DNA of 64,000 bases from Tubulanus polymorphus (lineage: Eukaryota > Nemertea > Palaeonemertea > Tubulaniformes > Tubulanidae). The notes beneath the pieces are model-generated. The model was not told the origin of the DNA. It did no database searches and worked only from the letters and a program-made list of their open reading frames with translations. The translations under genes and the position numbers were made by a program. Positions 2,795 through 22,000 of this stretch are shown here, piece by piece. Numbering within the stretch: the first letter of the stretch is position 1; every line of letters starts with the position of its first letter. The stretch is taken from NCBI RefSeq assembly GCF_964204645.1, contig NC_134027.1:1972485-2036484 (forward strand). The letters run 5' to 3'.

Positions 2795-4809
2795 CTTCAA
2801 TCTGTATCAACACTACAAGAAAATTACTCACTAAGTACTGTCAAACCCACTTAATTTCATCTAAACTGGATATACAGTAAAATCTCCCCCAGTGAACACC
2901 TCTCTATAGTGAACACCTATTTATACTGAACACCTATACAAATATAACGTTTTGCCCTCAACCAAAAATGTTTAACTGTAGGCCTATTCTATTGTCTCCC
3001 TATGTTTAATCAGGATTTTCTCAAAAACTGGATAGGTTTGAGGGTGAATAGTAGCTTAGATCATCCAATATCCCAGACACTGTACCTGGGAAATTGGAAA
3101 ATCTAAGCTAGCCTACTATTTACCCTTAACTCCAAATATGAGCCGCTATATGTATTTCAAAGCAACGTTCATTTGATGACTATTCAGTCATGTGTACAGT
3201 AGAGTGGGCTTAGTTACTGGCAGTCGCTATAAAACATGCAATCTGTTACACAATTTCAATTGAAATTAACAATCTTATTAAATATGAATCCAATCTCAAT
3301 TACTTACATTGATCCTAACAAAATTCCTGCCAGTAATGTATGACTTTATTTGAAGGAAGAGGCATGCAGTAAAATGGTTATTTAACACCTGAACTGGAGG
3401 GTCACGAGATCAGATAAAAGGGGAGAGAGGTTAGGGGTCTATCAATAATTATTATCTAGTAGATAACCTAACTGATATTTCAGGTCTAGACGACAACAAC
3501 ACTTGAACTGCTGGCGGTCAGATTATGAAAACTCATTATAAGCACTATTCATATGACAAACGCTGAATTTTAATACCAACATGAGTCTGACAACCTTCTT
3601 ATATTTTTAGTAATGTCACTACACAGCCTGCATGGCCAGATTCCTTAATCTAACTAACTGTTAATTCAATTCGAAGTCAGAGTCTTTAATATTATTATTA
3701 ATATTAATAATAATCAATCTGATTGATTAATAATTATATGGTTAGTTAATAATAATAGCGTTGTTGATGAAGCCAAAACCTAATTCATTAATATTATAAC
3801 GCCTTTCGGCTTTTCGCACGTACGTGAAGGTGCATCCAGTTAGATCACTGATGAAAGTAAACAGCAAAAAGTGAACACTGACTTAGAACAATTATGCTTC
3901 GTTTGAATTGATGTTTATTTTCCTTAGAGGGACCCGAATGGATAACTCCGCTATGCGTACGGATAACTCCGAGAAGGCTATTGTCCTTACGATTAACCAC
4001 TGTACTATTTATCGAAATAAAACGAAAGGGGACTGGTGCCTACGAGTACTCACATGCCACAGTAGAATTTTTTGCTGTCGAGTTCATATTCTGTTCATAC
4101 ATAGAACTATAACAGTTATATGGTTCATAGAACTCAAATCAATTGATTTGAGTTCTACTATGGTATGGTCGATCAGCAGTGCTCTTGGCCTGGTCCGGTC
4201 CAGGTGTCATCCAAAAATAATCATTAAAAATATGATTCTGATTGAATGATATATTTTTGCATTTTATCGATGTATTATGCCAACTTTGGTTTTATAGAGT
4301 CATACTTTTGATCATGCAATTTCGCGGCAATGAAGAACAAAAGGTATATACCGAGGTGGCGCTAGCGGGCGGAGAACAATTATCAAATGGTATTTGGCAA
4401 CTAGCAATTGGCAACTAGCAACTGGCATGTCCCTCCAGGTCTTCGATCCATATAATTCACTATGCGCGATGACCTATCACTACATCTACCCTCGATCTAT
4501 CGGCCACAAAAAACGCCTAAAAACAGGCGGCGCTAAATTCGGAGAGTTGTTGAGGAGAATCAAGTAATTTATCTCCAGTGGCCTTAAATTAAAGTTCTAC
4601 GATATTGTTCAGCTGGCTACTGGCGCGTGTTCTACTCGTCGGCCCTATTATAAGCTCTCGCTCAATTGTAAACCCACTCAACAATAGAGTCAAAGAGACA
4701 CAATTGCGGTATATTCACACGCCCTATTGAATACGTCACCGGTTGACCACAGTATGTATTAAGCATAGGAAACCATTCATTCACCTCCGCTCTCTCACAC
4801 TGTGCAGAC
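2795..4809. other. Intergenic region upstream of G6PD
   Basis: No gene is recognisable. It should hold the G6PD promoter and 5' UTR (minus strand, leftmost part), but no clear TATA box or leader exon could be assigned. An AT-rich stretch of TAA/ATT runs lies at 3680-3760. A perfect 30-bp palindrome lies at 4128-4157. Short repeats of a ggcaactagca motif occur near 4397-4425. Confidence 0.6.
4128..4157. repeat. Perfect 30-bp palindrome
   Basis: The two halves of 4128-4157 are exact reverse complements with no spacer, centred on caattg (left half begins tagaactcaaa). Partial copies of the arm (catagaactat, ggttcatag) occur just upstream at 4099-4130, so it may be the core of a small fold-back element. 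Confidence 0.8.
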
Positions 4810-6187
4810 ATGCTTCCGTGGATTCTCCTGGCGATCATGATCCTGGCGATCTTCGCTGCGCTCCTGTTCCTGCTTCCTGAGGAACGACGTCTTTATGTTT
4901 TATGTGTTACTGTTCGTCTCCGTACTGTCCTGTACTGTTCTGTGTTCATTAACCCGTTCTATTTTTCAGCATTTAATCCGTTCTATATTTCAGGGCCGAT
5001 TTCCCTCTCGATTTTTAATATTTTATGGAACAAAACTAATATCCGAAAGTGGCGGCTCTCCTTCGCCGGTCACTTGTCAAGAATGGCAGGTAAGAGACTG
5101 CCAGGAAATGATGTCCCTACGTGCCCTCACACAGGGAATGCAAACTAGGACGACAATGCCTCGCATCATTATCTGCCTACAGTGTGTACTGAGTGACGTC
5201 AATGACTGTCGAATCTATCGGACTGCTAGGGGTAAAAGATTGAGTGGTGTGATACTGGTCACCTTTCCGGCAGGACTGTAGTTGTGTTCCGGCAACTAGT
5301 TAACTCTAGTTCTGGCCATTGGTCGCCTTGGTTTTCCGGCAGAACTTCTCTCCTGAGTTGTTCCGTCCGGCAACTAGTTAACTCTAGTTCTAGCCATTGT
5401 TGACCTTTGGTTTTCCGGCAGAACTTCTCTCTTGAGTAGTTCTCCGGCAACTAGGGGACTCTAGTTCTGGCCATTGGTCGCTTTGGTTTTCCGGCAGAAC
5501 TTCTCTCCTGAGTTGTTCCGTCCGGAGACTAGTTGACTCTAGTTCTGGCCATTGTTGACCTTTGGTTTTCCGGGCACTTCTATTTGTTCTCGTTCGGCAA
5601 CTAGTTAACTCTAGTTCGACTCAGTAAGCGCTACTCTCTTTTGTCTCTTTTCGACGAATAAGAGATTCCAGAGATTCAACCGCCGCCGGGATCTGACGAC
5701 AGCCCGTGAAGACATCACATAAAGCTAAGTTGATTTATTATTCTTGGGTTATCATCCGTAGCCTGACGGATAGCTGCTAGGGAGATTGTGGGTGCCAGTG
5801 AAGTTCGGCATCTCCATCCAATATCTAACAGCAAATGACGTGATTGGTTCCAAAATTTCCAATTGTGTACTTCGATTTTTGCAACAAATTCTGTAAATTT
5901 GATCACCGATCACACAACTATATCTGTACTTCGATTTTGGAATTCAAAATCAAACCGTTTCACTCTCAGCAGGTGTAATGGGTATGTAGTAACTGTATAC
6001 ACCAAACACTGGAGTGTTTAAGATCTCCTAAGGCCTCCCCCTGAGTCCTCTCTCCTTTAACCCCCAATAATCATCATACTGCTGTCGTCTCTGATTTTTC
6101 TATTTCCAGGTCCGCTTGAACTCCGTCAAACTCCGTCAACCCGAAAGTCGAGGCACTGCCGAATTTCCAATTAAGAAGATTCTGTAA
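4810..6187 (+). CDS. Possible small membrane-anchored protein, unknown (tentative)
   Basis: Not recognised. An ATG at 4810 opens a strongly hydrophobic leader (MLPWILLAIMILAIFAALLF, then LLPEERR) with GC-rich codons unlike the AT-rich DNA after it. The uninterrupted frame runs 112 codons to 5148. A speculative spliced model uses a weak donor near 4887, an acceptor before 5000 and a strong donor (gtaaga) at 5091. Its second exon would encode FLIFYGTKLISESGGSPS and VTCQEWQ. A polypyrimidine acceptor near 6110 followed by an open stretch to the stop at about 6187 could be a last exon. The leader predicts one N-terminal membrane segment or signal anchor. No family, no conserved motif and no transcript evidence; it may be non-coding. 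Confidence 0.2.
5287..5620. repeat. Tandem repeat, ~78-bp unit, ~4.3 copies
   Basis: Four full copies and a partial fifth of a 74-79 bp unit start near 5288, 5367, 5442, 5520 and 5594. Each contains ccggcaactagttaactcta, tctggccattggtc and ttttccggcagaacttctct. Two subtypes (ggtcgc versus gttgacc in the middle) alternate, which suggests that a two-unit block was duplicated. Confidence 0.9.
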
Positions 6188-6239
6188 ACTCGACCGCCGA
6201 TCACACAACTATATCTGTACTTCGATTTCCGATTTAAAA

Positions 6240-6370
6240 ACTTAGACAAAATTCTCTTTTACCTTGTAAACTTTCGGACTACATGAAAAAAAGACCAAAG
6301 AATTGTATAAATTAGACAAAATTATTCAACCTTGTAAACTTTCGGACTAATTTACATGAAGACCAAATAT
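6240..6370. repeat. Short two-copy tandem duplication
   Basis: Two copies of a ~60-bp segment containing ttagacaaaatt and ccttgtaaactttcggacta, one after the other. A separate pair of segments sharing cgatcacacaactatatctg lies at about 5905 and 6200. Both pairs sit directly left of the larger exon/intron-like repeat array and look like further products of local duplication. Confidence 0.7.
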
Positions 6371-6419
6371 TGTAAAATTATCTTATTGCCAAAATCTCGA
6401 CGGGGCCGATTCAAATCAA

Positions 6420-8760
6420 ACTCAAACAACCAACCAACTTAGGAGATCCTCGCCGATAATGAACCCAGCAATCGTAAAAGGTAACTTCATAAACATGAAA
6501 TTATTACGATTAATTCTGGATGAAATATTTGTATTTACAGGATATCTTTGTTTTCTTATTTCAGCTACCGTTAATCCTATATGAAACTTCCGCGCTTGAG
6601 ATCAACAACTCGCTTAAAATCTGCCGATTGGAGAACAGCGCACAGAAAAGGCCAATTTGAATCCAATTCAACAACCGACCAACTTACGAGATACTCACCG
6701 ATAATGAACCTAGCAATCATAAAAGGTAACTTGATATACATGAAATTATCTTATATAATCTTATAATCAGTAATGATACTGAATTGTTGTACCGACTGCT
6801 CCGTCGTTACTGGATGTATCGCCCTGAAAATTTGCCCAGTGGTAGATCTAGTCTTTTTTGCTTGGTTTCCATGGAAAATGTATTTTTGAATTTATGTGGT
6901 GGGCCATTTACCAAATTTTTGTAGTCTCGCCTACTGTTCACAGAGGGCGCATGGGTCTGCTGGCATAGCCACTGACTTGAGCCAGCCACTGTTGTCACAG
7001 CTGATACAGTACGAGTTACTGCTGAGCTGGGTCATGAAACAGTTTTTCAAATGTAACAGATGATAGTAAATGAGAAAGCAATGAACCCTGCTTACTTTAA
7101 CCTACAAGGCACTGCTGCCGGTTCAAAGCAATACACTCACTGAAGTTAGCAGACTATATTGGGCGTGTTCAAATCTTCTGAGTGCAGTATAAAATTCATA
7201 CATTTTTCAGTATAAGGGCCCCAGTATCCTCGGGTACAGGTCAAGTCTCGAGATTCTGCATGTTCTCTATGGGCACGGGTGATCACACCACATAATAGGC
7301 CACTTTAAGATGCTCCTACTCAATTCACTTGCAATGAATAATAAGTTGGAAAGTTCTACGTTTAAAAATCACCCGTGGTTTCCACGGGCTTTCTACTAGT
7401 TTCGATTAATTCTGAATGAAATATTTGTATTTACAGGATATCTTTGTTCTCTCATTACAGCTTAATCCTATCTATATGAAACTGCCGCGTTTGAGATCAA
7501 CAACTTGTTTAAAATCTGCCGATAAGAAAACAGTGCAAATAAGAGGCATTTAATTATCAAAATCTACGCACCGGTCCACATTACTGATCTGATATATACC
7601 CGGCATCTTAACCTATCGTCATTAGTCTGAAACAGTGAGGAACTAATGCTACTACTACAACCAATTATTGGGGGTCGAAACTAATGTCCAATAATACACT
7701 AAAAGACAACCAAGGAGAAAAGCTGCAGATTCAGCTGCCACTGAGACTGAAATGATCTGACAACAGCCCCCAAAAATACCATATAGCATTGCATTCACCA
7801 ACCAATGACAAGGAGACGATCTGAGCCGATACTGAACATAGCAATCGTTAAAGGTAACTTGATTTACATTGAAATTATTATGATCAATGCTATATAAAGA
7901 ATTGTGTGAATATTTTCTATTAATCATTTTAGCTAAATCACATCTAAAAGGAAATGCCTAAGATTAACGAGTCGAAATCTACTGATCAGAACCGCAACAC
8001 AACTTGAATTGAACTCATCAATTCTAGCCGTTAATGAACTCAGCAATCTTGAAAGGTAGGTTGATTTACATGGAAATTATTATGGTCAATGCTATATAAA
8101 GAGTTGTGTGAATACAGGATATTTTCTTTTTTTACTCGTTTCAGCTAAAAAATCACATCCATAAAAAAAAAGCTAAGCCTAAGATTAACAAGTCAAAAAT
8201 GTTTTGAGTAGAATAGCGAACAGACGATTCCAACTTGAATTGAAATTATCAACTACCACAGAAGTCCAACTTGAATTGAAATCATCAACTACCACAACAA
8301 ATTTAACTCATGAACCAACTTAGACAATCCTAGCCGATACTAAACTCAGCATTGAAAGGTAGGTTGATTGACATTGAAAGGATTATGATTAATAAAGAAT
8401 TGTGTGATTACCGGATATTTTTTTTCACTCGTTTCAGCCAAAACATTACATCCATAAGGAAAAAGCTCATACTAAGATCAACTAACCAACTAGAATCTAC
8501 CGATTAGAACAGTCAACAGAACGAGTCCAATTCGAATTGAACTCATCGACCAAACGAGAACTCCTAGCCAATACTAAACCCATTTATCTTGAAAGGTAAG
8601 TTGATTTACATGGAAATTTATTATAATTAATGCTATATGAAGATTTGTGTATTTTGTAAGATATTGCATGATAATTGGATATCTTCTTTTACTCATTTTA
8701 GCCATAAAATCACATCTATAAGAAATAGCTCATACTAAGATCAACTAACCATCTAGAATC
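6420..8760 (+). repeat. Array of repeated exon/intron-like units
   Basis: Six units each contain a conserved donor-like site (aaaggtaactt or aaaggtaggttg), a conserved inner segment (acatgaaattattatg and, in most units, gctatataaag or gaatgaaatat) and a pyrimidine tract ending in cag or tag. The intron-like pieces are 6481-6564, 6726-7460 (carrying a Helitron), 7854-7932, 8056-8144, 8359-8437 and 8596-8701. Without the transposon the second is 84 bp, the same as the first. Exon-like pieces between them (~130-240 bp) share aactcagcaatc and gaattgaactcatc but no common reading frame. One has an open frame at 6581-6725; others are stopped. Either a duplicated exon of a non-coding transcript or a satellite that carries splice-like signals. 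Confidence 0.7.
6749..7399 (+). mobile_element. Non-autonomous Helitron, 651 bp
   Basis: The element starts with TC (tcttatataatc) after a host A. It ends with CTAG (7396-7399) before a host T, with a GC-rich hairpin (7-bp stem 7372-7378/7382-7388, cccgtgg/ccacggg) seven bases plus one upstream of the CTAG. There is no target-site duplication. These are the hallmarks of Helitron termini. The neighbouring repeat unit supplies an empty site: removing 6749-7399 restores an intact 84-bp intron-like piece matching 6481-6564. There is no Rep/helicase coding capacity, so it would have been moved in trans. Confidence 0.85.
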
Positions 8761-8881
8761 GAATGATTAAAGCAGCCAACAGAAGATTCCGACTTGAATT
8801 GAACTACATAGGCCTAGTAGTCCAGATGAGAAATTCAGCCAGCAGCAGTTTATGGCCCAATGATGGATTTCTTCTACAGTA

Positions 8882-9085
8882 GGTGGAGCACAGACAATGC
8901 GTGTCTTATAAACACTTATTCAGGAGCAGCAGAGACAATGCGTATCTTATAAACACTTATTCAGGAGCAGCACAGACAATGCGTGTCTTATAAACACTTA
9001 TTCAGGAGCAGCAGAGACAATGCGTAAACACTTATTCAGGAGCTGCACATGCATATCTTATAAACACTTATTCAGGAGCAGCAAC
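8882..9085. repeat. 41-bp tandem repeat, ~5 copies
   Basis: Head-to-tail copies of a ~41-bp unit (gacaatgcgtatcttataaa followed by cacttattcaggagcagca). One copy has lost about 10 bp and the last is diverged in the middle. No open reading frame is conserved across the copies. Confidence 0.9.
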
Positions 9086-12000
9086 GTCAGTAGAATACGT
9101 AAAGTATTGATTTATTTTGAGCATTACCTTTTTACAAACCAGTCTGATGTGTAACATGGGTTCCAAAATGCGTCTTAAAATTCACTGTCTATTTGAAGAG
9201 GCTGAAATAAAGAAATAGTTTTAATGTTGATTAATGAAATTTGAAGTTAGTTAATTAGGGCTCTGGGCCTGAGAAGGAACTATTCGTATATTGATTAGGC
9301 AAAATGTTTTTGGTTTGTAAACAGATGTGTCATGTCCTTTGTAATTTGACAGAAAGTTCCTTCTTGGATTCTCATAAAATCTACGCTCCATTAATTCATA
9401 ATGTTGATAGCTTTCAGCGTCTCGACTCGTAGGTCAGTTGAAATACACCTTAACTGAGATATAGAATCAATGGGATTTCAGATAATCTTCATACTTAGTT
9501 AAACATAGCTTTTCATGATTTGTAATAATGACATAGTCCATTGGTCTTTATTCGATTAATCTTAGAAATAGTGATTCATTTTATACTTCCTGAGAGTGAA
9601 AATAATTTAATGATTTGCATAGCCTAAATGTTCAAAAGGGAGAGCGTAGTCAGTTAAACAGTTGCAACTTTTAAACGCAATAAAGGAAGTTGGTACGTAA
9701 TTACTTTGGACTCCTAAACTCACCCAGCAAGTTAATGGGTTTTGAATAAAGATGTTTTGAAAATGATTCCTTGGCCAAAAAGTGAAGGGCCGGGCCTTCA
9801 GTACAAACTGGCTACGCCCCCCGAATATCATCACGTGTAGTTAAGGAAACCATATAATATTAGGCAGTGTTCTGTGTACAAATAATAAGTTTATATACCA
9901 AAGTGTTGATTTATTTTTTGATGCCATAATTTTAAGGCCCGTTAAAGCGATTTGACTAATGAGTAGAATATCTTGATTTTCACATAGAGTTTAGAATTGT
10001 GCTTCCATGCAGGTGATCCTAGCTAGTTATATGAAACTTATATCGTCGTTCATTGTATCCACAGAGGTATGAGAGGTAATACTAGGAATAATGTAATATA
10101 AAGGAATAAATAATCATGGCCAGCAATAATTTTGATCGTTTTGATTTTGTTTATAGCTGTTTTAACTTCTTTCATGGTCATTCATATCATTAGGTTGAGT
10201 GGCTTTCATACTAATGATCACTTAACTTCAAATCGGGGTGTTCAATAAGGAAACTATTATTTAGGTGCAGCAGTGAATTTGTAGCACTTTTTTGAGTGAG
10301 CCCATAATCTCACCGGTAAAAAATTCCTGATGTAAATAGTGATAAATAGTACAAAATACAGAGCACATAATTAAAAGAAATAAACAAAACTACATAACAA
10401 AATAAATGATATAAAAAAACCCAATAAAACTAATAGTAAATAATAATAGTAATAAAGTAATAAAAAAATAAACAAAACCAACAAACAATAAGTTAATATA
10501 GGGCTCCGTCATCAGGAATTTTTTCCTATCAACTTTATCTAATTATTAAAGGTTCTTCTTTCATAGAACAACCTTCTCCGTGTTTCCCAACCTCTTGAGA
10601 TCTTTTCTGTTGTTGTTTTAAGTGTTCTATCGGATCAGTTAGTAATAAACAAAACAAATAACCATAAACCTTAACTAAATCAAACACACAAAAAATAACT
10701 GATTCGATTGAATACTTCGAATAGCTGATGAAAGATCACGCGTCCTTTTACCTATATATCACACCCTATCACTGCTGTTACTGTTAATTGTTTTAGGGAT
10801 AATATCTGGGAGATACATTTTACTCTTTTTTTAGAAAGAATGTTAAACGGCTATAAACATGGTTAGTTATCGATAGTAAAATTATTGTCATGTTTTCCCT
10901 TAAATAACATTGAATCAAATGAGTGAACTGATAATGTTTGAAAATCTTTAGTTAAGACAAGGTGCAGCGAAAATTCTAGTTGTCTAGTAAAAATGATTTT
11001 AATGAAAATGAAATTTAGAACGTTAAGTTAATACTAAGCTTTCCAGGATGACTTAGTAGGATTTGTTTCTTTTATGTTGAGCTGTTTTTAAAGTGCAGTT
11101 CATTTGTTTACTAGGAACTTACAAGATAATTCCTCAAGATTAAATACCTTTCATTAAGCAAGGTGTAATTTTGTCATGAGAATAAAACGACAGATATGTG
11201 TTCGTTATTCATCTTAAAAATTTTCGATTGGTCAGTTTAGTTTATAGCAACCATCAAACTGATGTCCTATCAAATAAAGTGGAGCAGTAGTTTTTATAAA
11301 TGAGGATATATGAACAGTATTGATTAGTAAATTGTCCTGTTTTGATTGTCAGTTTTACAATGGCTATATATAGTATATCTATTTTTCATAACTCATGCAT
11401 ACAATGTTGGACAGGTTTTATGTGCGCTGGTTATAGAGGATCCAGTGCTAGCCAGCTGGCAGTGCTTAGAATGAAGGCACCAGACCATTTCAAATATCGA
11501 AAAAAGTTGTAGATAATTGTAGATACTTTAGCAATCAGTTATTTGTAATTTACCTAGCTATATTCATATGGATAGTTGAACAATATCTATACGATGATAC
11601 TCAATATATCTTAATTAAAAAACCTTCAAAATACGTTTCATTAAACGAAACAATGTGGAGAAAATAACGTTGATAATGTTTGAAAATCTCAGGCAAAGTT
11701 GGCAAAACTCTAGTTATCTTGTAAAATAATGTTAATGAAAATAAAGATTGATTAGTTGATTAGTTAATCTCAAGCTTTCCACAGTGAATCTGATGGTTTT
11801 ATCTATGGTTTTAATGCTTTTATGTTTTTCGAATACAGTTCACCCATTCGTTAATGAAGAACTTTCATGATAATTCCTTGAATACAAAGCAAAGTTTGCA
11901 AAATTTCAGTTTTCTTGTAAAAATTATGTTAATGAAATGAAATCAGAGATTGATATTGAGAGAGTGAATTTGTTTTATGTCCAGTTTTAATGTTTATATG

Positions 12001-12392
12001 TTGGAGATGATATGTTATGCAGTTTTTTTGTATAAACAGAATATCTCAAATCTCTCTTACATTGTCATTTGAATAGTTGATATGATGGAATGCTTCATAT
12101 TTCATGAAATAACCAAGTGTCACTTATGCCCAGTGACTTCGTGAATGTCAAATTAATAGTCTTAAACATTCAGACTAGTCCTAATTGTTGGTGTTTTATG
12201 GATCAAGGTTTACAATTCTGTGTGTAATTTTGTTATTTTCCTATTGATTCAAATTGTATGAATCAGTTGCAGTGGAAATGTTTTTGGCGAATAAAACCTT
12301 GAAATACCTTCCATGATGTAGCATATGTGATATTAAAAGCTAGTAATCTTATATTTTGGATAATCTAAGTCATTAAAAGGCTAATGATAATA

Positions 12393-12547
12393 CCTTGTTT
12401 TTCCTGATCGGCCGGGTCATTTCATAAATCAATGAAATTTGTAATCACTTAATTTCTATCTGCCGCATCTGTTATGGTTAGCTTGATCATGATTTTAAAA
12501 AAAAGTCATGTAAGGTCTAAGGTAGATAGGCGGCCGGCCAGGTAAAC
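12393..12547 (+). mobile_element. Truncated MITE, same family as 28378-28552
   Basis: Aligns by eye with the intact copy at 28378-28552. Shared blocks are ccttgttt, tcggccgggt, ttctatctgcc, tggttagc, tgatcatgattttaaaaaaa and ggtagataggcggcc. The left terminal repeat is present with one mismatch; the right terminal repeat is missing or unrecognisable. Confidence 0.75.
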
Positions 12548-12685
12548 GATTCATTAAATCTTACGCTTTCCAGGGTATTCGGCCAGGTTTATCTCTGGTT
12601 TTAGTGCGGGGAGCCATGCACTCTCACAGTTTAGAGTCCATGGTTGTGTGCTATAGACGTTTCTCTTTTAGAGTCTATGCTTGGA

Positions 12686-12732
12686 CCATGGACGTATAAA
12701 CTCTTAGTTTATAGTTTATACGTCCATGGTTG
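12686..12732. repeat. Hairpin with 17-bp arms
   Basis: The left arm ccatggacgtataaact and its exact reverse complement, agtttatacgtccatgg, flank a short loop. Related half-arms (gagtccatgg, gtctatgc) lie just upstream at 12635-12680. The structure sits inside one copy of the diverged long-period repeat and is absent from the other copies. Confidence 0.75.
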
Positions 12733-13263
12733 GACTGTTTTTGAAATACAGTCCACGTGTTTTAGGAACTTAAGTTATAATTCCTCGAGCACACCTGGCA
12801 TTTCGTATAATTGTTGTATGAGAGTAAATATAATTGTTAGAAACTCTTTGTTTGTTCAGTTAATTAGCTACTGTGAACCAGTCAGTGGTTGTGATGCTAT
12901 GTTCTGCCGATTCTTAAGATTCACTATGCTTAGATTTGCATAAACTAACACGAACTGACTCTGGCAGAAGACTCTTGGTTGCCAGAGACAATTCACATTG
13001 TAGAAAGCTTTACAATTTAAGATATAGAAAAAAACGCAATGAAATGGGAAGAAAACTTCAAATAGATTCAAGGGATTTAGAAATAAAATCTTTATTCCTG
13101 ATTATTAACAATGATAAATCATAAAATATTCTTGATAAAGCATTACATGAATTGAAATATCCAAATATGGTAGAAAAATGTTCTTTAAAAAAGCAATATA
13201 TATGTATATACATCATTTAGTACACAATTAAGTACAGAAGCGGCATGTCATCATTTTAAAGGT

Positions 13264-19001: not shown

Positions 19002-22000
19002 ATGTCTGGTGATAAGGTTATACCGGTTAAAGTGGCCGTTCGATGTCGACCACTCATACCAAAAGAAGTATCAGATGGTTGTCAGCAATGTCTCTATTTT
19101 GTCAAAGGTTTGTGCCATAACAAATTGATCGCGTCTCCCTCGGGCCTCACCTTCGCTCTGCAGTCAGACACTGAGTCTGAGAGTGAGACAGAGTCAGTAC
19201 GACAGTATCACTATCAGCTCTTTGGGTGGCACTGACAATCACCACTACTGCAGCAGACTCGTCGAGCAGAGAAGTCAGATGGTGATCCCTAGCCTATGAT
19301 TCCTTGATTCCTATGGCCAGGGACAATTACTTCTTCGGCCCTGTTTCGGTTGGATGCCACTTGCAGAGTCAAGACTGGTGCTCTTGGCATCCTGGTAACT
19401 GGTTGAATGAATTGGATCATGTATGATGTTTTTCCTTCCCCAGACCACTTAAGCCCAGAAGCGGGTTGGGAGAAGGCCAGGGTATATCATATATGTGAAT
19501 GTAGAATGATGACAAGCTTGGAATTAAGCAATTGTAAATGCATTAATAAATTTACTAATCAACAAGTTAAACTAACCCTGTGAGAAAGGGATATCTTTCT
19601 CCAAACTACGCAAAAACCAAGCAACAAAAATGAGAAACATCGATGAGGATCCTTCACAACTGATTATGATAATGATGATTTGATTTAGGAGATATGATAC
19701 CCAAAATGTTTGTGATAATGAGATTCAATTAGAAAATGAGATATATATTATTTTTATGGATGTTTGCTGTTTATATGTGACAATCTGCTTATTGATTTAA
19801 TGAATTTTCAGGAGAACCACAGGTAATTGTTGGTAGTAATCGTCCATTCACGTTTGATTATGCATTCAGCGCTGAAACATCACAGGAAGATGTTTATGAC
19901 TCGGCTGTTAATGGTCTTCTAAGAGGACTTTTCAATGGTTAGTTTACAATTCTCGCTGAAACCTGACGTCACTAGTCTTTGCTCGAAGTAATGATTATGA
20001 TTCTCGTATTTTTTCTAGGGTATAATGCGACTGTATTGGCGTATGGACAAACCGGTAGTGGTAAAACTTATTCAATGGGAAGTAGCTATCATCCTGAAGA
20101 TGCGCCTGATTCTTCTACTCTTGGTATCATTCCTAGAGTTGTGAAGTCATTATTCAAACAAGCTAATGAAGACGTTGACCATGAATTTTCTGTGCGAGTG
20201 TCATTTCTTGAAGTGAGTAATATTCATTTTGCACAGGGTTTGCAGTTTCCATTTTTTTGTGAAACTGCGCCCTGTTTGAAATTTTCGATAAAATGCCACA
20301 ACAAAAATAGAAAAATGTTTGATCCTAAACTTACTTAAACCAGAACAAGTTGTTTTATTTTTATAGTTGTATAATGAAGATATAATAGACCTGTTTGTGC
20401 CAGCTGAGAGACGTGAAACAATGGTGCTTCGTGAAGATCCGATCAATGGTATCAAGGTAACTAGGCAGACCAACTATTTCCATATTATGATCATGTATAC
20501 ATACACAGAGAATAAGTTCTTCATTATTGACAAATTCTAAATAATCTAAATTGCATCTTGATCTACACAAATTGTAATTTGTCATTCAGATTCCGGGGCT
20601 GAAAGAAATGAGCGTGCACAATCTACAAGAAACGATGGATCTATTACGTCAGGGTTCGGTAGGAAGGACGACTGGTGCTACGGCTATGAACAGTCAATCG
20701 AGCAGATCTCATGCTATATTCACTATACACGTCGACCAATTCAACAAACTAGATCAGTAAGACACAGAAACCATAATTAACGTTATACCAACTAGAACTT
20801 AGATAATTTTATGTGCAACATTCATTGTATATAACTTCATTTTCAGGAATGATATTTGGAAGGCTAAATTTCATCTGGTCGACTTGGCTGGTTCTGAAAG
20901 GGTGAAGAAGACAATGGCCACTGGGGATAGATTTAAAGAAGGTGTGCCGAGTAATTCTATCATACAAAATACTCAAGAATAAGATACGGATGCATTAGGC
21001 CTATATTTAATTTGATTCACAGGTGTAAATATTAACAAGGGTTTGCTGATGTTGGGTAACGTAATTAGTGCTTTGGGTTGTGAAAGAGGAAAATCAACTC
21101 ATATTCCATACAGAGATAGTAAACTGACTCGTCTTTTACAAGGTATATTTTAAACTCATTCAACAGTTGCCGGTATATCATATATATATAAATATAGTAA
21201 ACTCACTCGTCTTTTACAAGGTATATTTCAAACTCATTCAACAGTCGCCGGTATATCATATTGTTTTAAAGAAGTATCATGCTGTAAAAATAGCTTAAAA
21301 CAGTAAATTATTATTTTTCCTAAGTACAATTATAAGTTACTGATTGATTTATTGCGTTTTTATGTAGATTCCCTCGGTGGAAACAGTCATACATTGATGA
21401 TTGCCTGTGTAAGTCCAGCAGATAATAACATGGAGGAGACTCTGAACACGCTGCGATACGCCGACAGAGCACGCAAAATCAAGAATAAACCAGTTGTCAA
21501 TCGCGATCCTCAAGCAGCTGAAATTCTTCGCCTGAGACAATTAGTATGTGTTATTTTACTTCCTCAGTCGAATCTTAAACCGGGTGGCCACTTTTATTTG
21601 ACTTGCTTTTTCCCTATTTCCTGACATGCGTGTTGTTTGCCTGACCTGCTAGCTGTGAATCCGATGAAACACAGTCAAATACGTAAGACATAGATGGAAA
21701 CTGTTTGAATTTACGTGCTATTTTGCAATCTAGAAAATTTCCCCGACTTTATCCTAAATTTCTGTTCTTACAAAATTCCCTGACTTTCCCATGATATCAC
21801 TGATTTCCAGGTAAGTGGCCACCCTGTATTAGTCTGTACAGATAGACAGATGTTACTAATACAATAAAATGCCAACAGGTTCAAGAACTACAAATGAGGA
21901 ACATTACTGTAGATTTAAGCTCGAACAGCGAAGTGACTGAGAAACCCGGGACCTCACATTACAGTAGTAATAGTAATCTGGGCAAGTTGAAATCACTAGA

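Follow-up and report, generated by a model that had tools for sequence, protein, structure and literature searches.

A tandem array of intron-like units with conserved splice signals inside an interspersed DNA element of the nemertean Tubulanus polymorphus

Firre is reportedly a host-gene long non-coding RNA with repeated exons. The locus that we describe here resembles it in that a multi-exon non-coding transcript made of local repeats is predicted, but the array of repeats lies in an interspersed mobile element and not in a host gene. Among mobile elements, Pack-TIRs and Pack-MULEs share with this locus the form of a non-autonomous DNA element with matching ends, target duplications and a gene-like, intron-bearing cargo (PMC8277862). 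In contrast to these elements, no captured host gene was identified here, the cargo is non-coding, and an intron-exon unit has been amplified in tandem with detectable constraint on its splice sites. Introners are intron-generating transposons, most of them DNA-transposon-like (PMC9860276), and they too are mobile elements with repeated sequence bounded by functional-looking splice sites. Introners insert singly in coding exons and become introns, whereas the units here remain inside one larger element. At the loci inspected the units were tandem or the single remainder of an element and were not scattered through host genes, which ruled out an Introner. Oyster transposons with satellite-like internal repeats (PMC5139131) have short ends flanking a tandem core of variable unit number, as is the case here; our unit differs in being an intron with its flanking exon and in showing conservation specific to the splice sites.

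Six intron-like units in the window

The window, a stretch of 64,000 nucleotides (C3:1972485-2036484), belongs to a genome of 267.8 Mb in 77 contigs, which was searched for related copies. A preliminary description of this DNA had proposed six tandem units with splice-like signals. Run on the window, a profile made from five of its units returned an array of all six, each with an AAAG/GTRA donor and a TTTYAG-type acceptor (the slash marks the splice boundary):

6481..6564, + strand: intron unit 1, 84 nt, AAAG/GTAACT to TTATTTCAG/CT
6726..7461, + strand: intron unit 2, split by an insert of ~640 nt at ~6765-7402 (donor at 6726, end of acceptor at 7461)
7854..7932, + strand: intron unit 3, 79 nt, profile match
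8056..8144, + strand: intron unit 4, 89 nt, profile match
8359..8437, + strand: intron unit 5, 79 nt, profile match
8596..8701, + strand: intron unit 6, last of the array, 106 nt, profile match

The five donor/acceptor pairs proposed earlier agreed with these limits to within one base. The spacing of 79-106 bp that had been given for every unit held for the compact introns (5/6 units, 79-106 nt) and failed for the sixth, which is split by the ~640 nt insert. In this split unit the profile matched a donor half at 6694-6750 and an acceptor half at 7403-7502, and positions 6765-7204 of the insert are absent in a related copy on contig C6 (L034). We also scanned for a strong donor followed 70-115 nt downstream by a pyrimidine-backed acceptor, using Markov-1 sequence as the null. 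All five compact units were recovered within 2.3 kb, against a chance expectation of 0.8 pairs per 64 kb.

The exons between the introns measure 161, 392, 123, 214 and 158 nt. These lengths have no common phase and the consensus exon junction holds stops in every frame, in agreement with the earlier remark that the exon-like pieces share no reading frame. The introns had also been called more conserved than the exons; the direction of this claim was right (83.5% versus 81.3% aligned identity), but the contrast is weak, as the difference is mostly one of exon length and indels. In a copy on contig C8 (L033:4479-6216), ~1.4 kb containing the first two units is directly duplicated, another sign of unit amplification.

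The element that carries the array

The array unit was found at ~33 places on contigs C1-C11 (our grouping of 94 matches, among the candidates scored; about half of the loci are known from match rows only). Homology with seven of these places reached beyond the array and delimited the following feature:

4162..12999, + strand: window copy of an interspersed element, ~8.8 kb, with both outer ends missing

Homology to the C8 and C6 copies begins at 4162-4163 and ends at 12999. Because those two copies remain alike outside both points, the window copy has lost its outer sequence on either side; it is flanked by a G6PD gene upstream and a transglutaminase gene downstream. Full-length copies are roughly 12 kb and carry 4 to 8 units, with the array at a fixed position between conserved, non-repeated flanks. 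Some derivatives, 0.8 to 2.5 kb long, are internally deleted and retain both ends, and three single-unit loci (L016, L020 and L029) retain the last intron and the 3' part. The same non-coding layout recurs in distant subfamilies (C2, C8b, L016, L020, L029), and the element also holds tandem repeats of 41, 76 and 155 bp. No unit copy was recognised outside the element among the candidates scored. Judged by these comparisons, an interspersed DNA element of ~12 kb carries the array as internal cargo, which the preliminary description had missed. That description had named many copies in random contexts as one mark of an ordinary satellite; copies are indeed numerous, but those inspected share one element context. 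A free satellite was ruled out by the fixed place of the array in a larger element and by its 4-8 units in full copies.

Several other features were recorded in and around these loci. A perfect palindrome, GAACTCAAATCAATTGATTTGAGTTC, occupies 4131-4156 and adjoins the left break of the window copy. To the right of the C6 copy, past its end, lie a long reverse transcriptase frame (L039:3892-5694, - strand) and a pair of frames for a zinc-knuckle/GDSL protein and an endonuclease (L039:7095-9897, + strand). We rejected the L039 reverse transcriptase frames as part of the element, as they are separate LINE-type insertions past its end. Elsewhere in the window, a 47-bp tandem repeat (1373-2262; 18.9 copies, 96% matches) lies between exons of the G6PD gene, and a 78-bp unit (21116-21261; 1.9 copies, 95% matches) lies in a kinesin gene region.

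The outer ends of related copies carry a block of ~50-70 bp, TAGACTGGTTGCC...GGTAACCAGTCTA, on both sides; the window copy itself has the terminal block at neither end. The starting motif of this block has 190 near matches genome-wide versus 0 for a reversed control. Target duplications of 9-10 bp flank four insertions, one exact and three with one mismatch: a short copy at L072 (exact, 10 bp, AAAGGCGGGT), a short copy at L069 (TACTCTAACC/TACACTAACC), a 2.1 kb copy on C5 (GCGGTATCC/GTGGTATCC) and a copy on C1 (GTGGGAATC/GTGGGAAGC). A target duplication was not evident in at least three other insertions; among the end-pair flanks inspected, those at C7:19229470 and L078 had no clear one, and the duplications at L044 and L077 are doubtful. 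Related copies thus have the matching terminal sequences and 9-10 bp target duplications by which DNA transposons are recognised, and the family looks like a non-autonomous DNA transposon with cut-and-paste movement. Members of the Mutator superfamily (MULEs) make target duplications of ~9 bp (8-11). The duplications observed here are compatible with that superfamily, although length alone does not define one. We found no transposase in the open frames of the element that were examined and identified no autonomous partner; because no transposase was found, the element is not filed under Mutator.

The terminal block also stands alone, as a unit of ~50-60 bp with 10 bp target duplications (L069 and L072; ~190 motif matches genome-wide). 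By these signs the lone block is a minimal mobile unit, and it is also the sequence that closes the large element on either side. Because a solitary block has a target duplication of its own, two such short elements flanking a cargo may make up the large element.

Splice-site constraint and a predicted non-coding transcript

Constraint was measured on an alignment of 76 distinct full-length units with a mean divergence of 13% from their consensus. Both GT (76/76) and AG (76/76) were intact throughout. Parsimony on the unit tree gave 436 changes over 165 columns (mean of 2.72 per well-filled column), and the four GT/AG columns had 0 changes where ~11 were expected (permutation p ~0.0004, random four-column sets). 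For the eight splice columns (AG/GTA and YAG) the permutation p was 0.0002. When weak and partial units were included, GT was present in 95/97 and AG in 103/103, and the two of 97 donors that were lost both belong to this wider partial set. The commonest donor across units is AAAG/GTAAGT. At the acceptor, the -3 base is always a pyrimidine (C/T, 65/11), and a second CAG ~24 nt upstream has been lost in several unit types; because the one is always kept and the other is not, we took TTTYAG to be the acceptor. Signals of the U2 type, namely GT...AG, an extended donor and an acceptor with a pyrimidine tract, are therefore present in 76/76 units. Near position -53 a TYAA is conserved and might serve as the branch site, which we offer as a conjecture. 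Further intron columns are likewise unchanged, and constraint is strongest at the splice sites without being confined to them; the constraint could be shared by a further signal, in DNA or RNA, that overlaps them. The best reading of these patterns is that splicing of the short introns, which we infer, was under purifying selection during the spread of the family.

Around the array, the following features would complete a transcription unit:

4811..5086, + strand: putative first exon region, overlapped by a 112-codon open frame that is probably not coding
5087..6111, + strand: putative long first intron, CAG/GTAAGAG to TATTTCCAG/GTC
8702..9230, + strand: putative last exon, with 41-bp tandem repeats at 8887-9083, then a conserved block and AATAAA near 9206
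9231..12999, + strand: remainder of the element to the right, rich in AT and non-coding; identity to the C2 copy 80-82%, no codon periodicity

Where close copies align with its two putative splice sites, the long first intron has kept GT and AG. Its donor is retained in C8b too and altered in L016, and the intron holds the 155-bp tandem repeat at 5288-5573. At the other end, subfamilies that match at ~72-86% where the last exon begins reach 91-97% identity over the block at 9170-9250. The AATAAA is present in most copies, and the hexamer is altered in copy C6b.

The 112-codon frame, which lies near 4811 and has a hydrophobic start, is open in 4/5 close copies. Its variable sites are distributed over the codon positions as 26/24/31, and codon periodicity was found neither in this frame nor in the 9-13 kb region compared with the C2 copy. 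Pfam gave no match in the element open frames tested, which included the 112-codon frame and the longer frames of the right part. A coding repeat was ruled out by exon lengths without shared phase, junction stops and the lack of codon periodicity, and the predicted spliced product is non-coding. At gathering scores the window had no Rfam match; this ruled out a known structured RNA and sets the locus apart from recognised snoRNA host genes. With splice signals significantly conserved and a non-coding product, the preliminary idea that duplicated exons form a non-coding transcript fits the locus, so that the earlier reading stands in this part.

We consider it probable that the element is a non-autonomous DNA transposon containing a multi-exon non-coding transcription unit, with tandem-amplified introns whose splicing is under selection. 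The cargo would be an RNA polymerase II unit of ~4.8-9.2 kb; its transcription and its outer limits we infer from the features above. A first exon and long intron (~4.8-6.1 kb) would lead into the array, the run of short introns would have grown as a single intron-plus-exon unit was duplicated in tandem, and the 41-bp repeats would belong to a last exon closed by a poly(A) signal near 9.2 kb. As the transposon family diversified, selection would have maintained the splicing of these short introns.

Tandem repeats are known from the interior of other non-autonomous elements, further repeats (41, 76 and 155 bp) occur in this one, and its copies are dispersed and non-coding. The array could accordingly be an ordinary internal minisatellite whose splice-like signals were a functionless chance feature of the founding unit. 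We hold this to be unlikely, given that the 76 units show 0 GT/AG changes versus ~11 expected (permutation p 0.0004), that strong donor-acceptor pairs are far above chance, and that donor and acceptor are retained even in the unit split by a long insert. Conservation of the inner intron block might instead reflect a small structured RNA, snoRNA-like, hosted by each intron and itself the object of conservation in place of splicing; arrays of intron-hosted small RNAs are a known gene type, and such a host had been suggested in the preliminary description. Rfam lent this suggestion no support, with no family at the cut-off anywhere in the window, the sharpest constraint falls at the splice columns, and the introns are merely 79-106 nt. 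A small-RNA host is in our judgement very improbable.

The array might also be the spliced untranslated leader of a coding gene, for example a transposase, in an unseen autonomous relative, the copies examined having lost the coding part. Non-autonomous DNA elements normally rely on a coding relative, and the first-look candidate lists were scored only in part. Against such a leader, the subfamilies C2, C8b, L016, L020 and L029 all share the non-coding layout, and the open frames tested have no Pfam domain. We regard it as rather unlikely and favour the non-coding transcription unit.

Possible reasons for keeping the introns

Intron-bearing mobile elements are usually coding elements, and introns in general aid expression and export. 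Tandem introns in a purely non-coding transcript might benefit the element through better expression or export, or by lending it the look of a host gene against HUSH-like silencing; such a benefit is a speculation that we think doubtful. In mammals, HUSH silences long intronless transcripts, and an added intron counteracts silencing even without splicing (PMC8770142). By this analogy, to which we give low weight, evasion of a HUSH-like system may be a reason for the introns, but alone it would leave the constraint at the precise splice bases unaccounted for, because under HUSH it is the intron, and not splicing, that protects. An equally simple reason for keeping the introns would be a spliced leader belonging to a coding relative that went unseen.

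A search of the open-access literature turned up no earlier case of a non-coding transposon with introns in tandem, a weak indication that none exists. The cargo of this element, which has the marks of a non-autonomous DNA transposon, is gene-like, and its tandem non-coding introns show constraint at the splice sites. Dozens of natural copies with one to eight units offer a testbed for the relation of intron number to silencing or spread. A non-coding mobile element in which duplicated introns have conserved splice sites suggests that splicing may be selectable at the level of the transposon.
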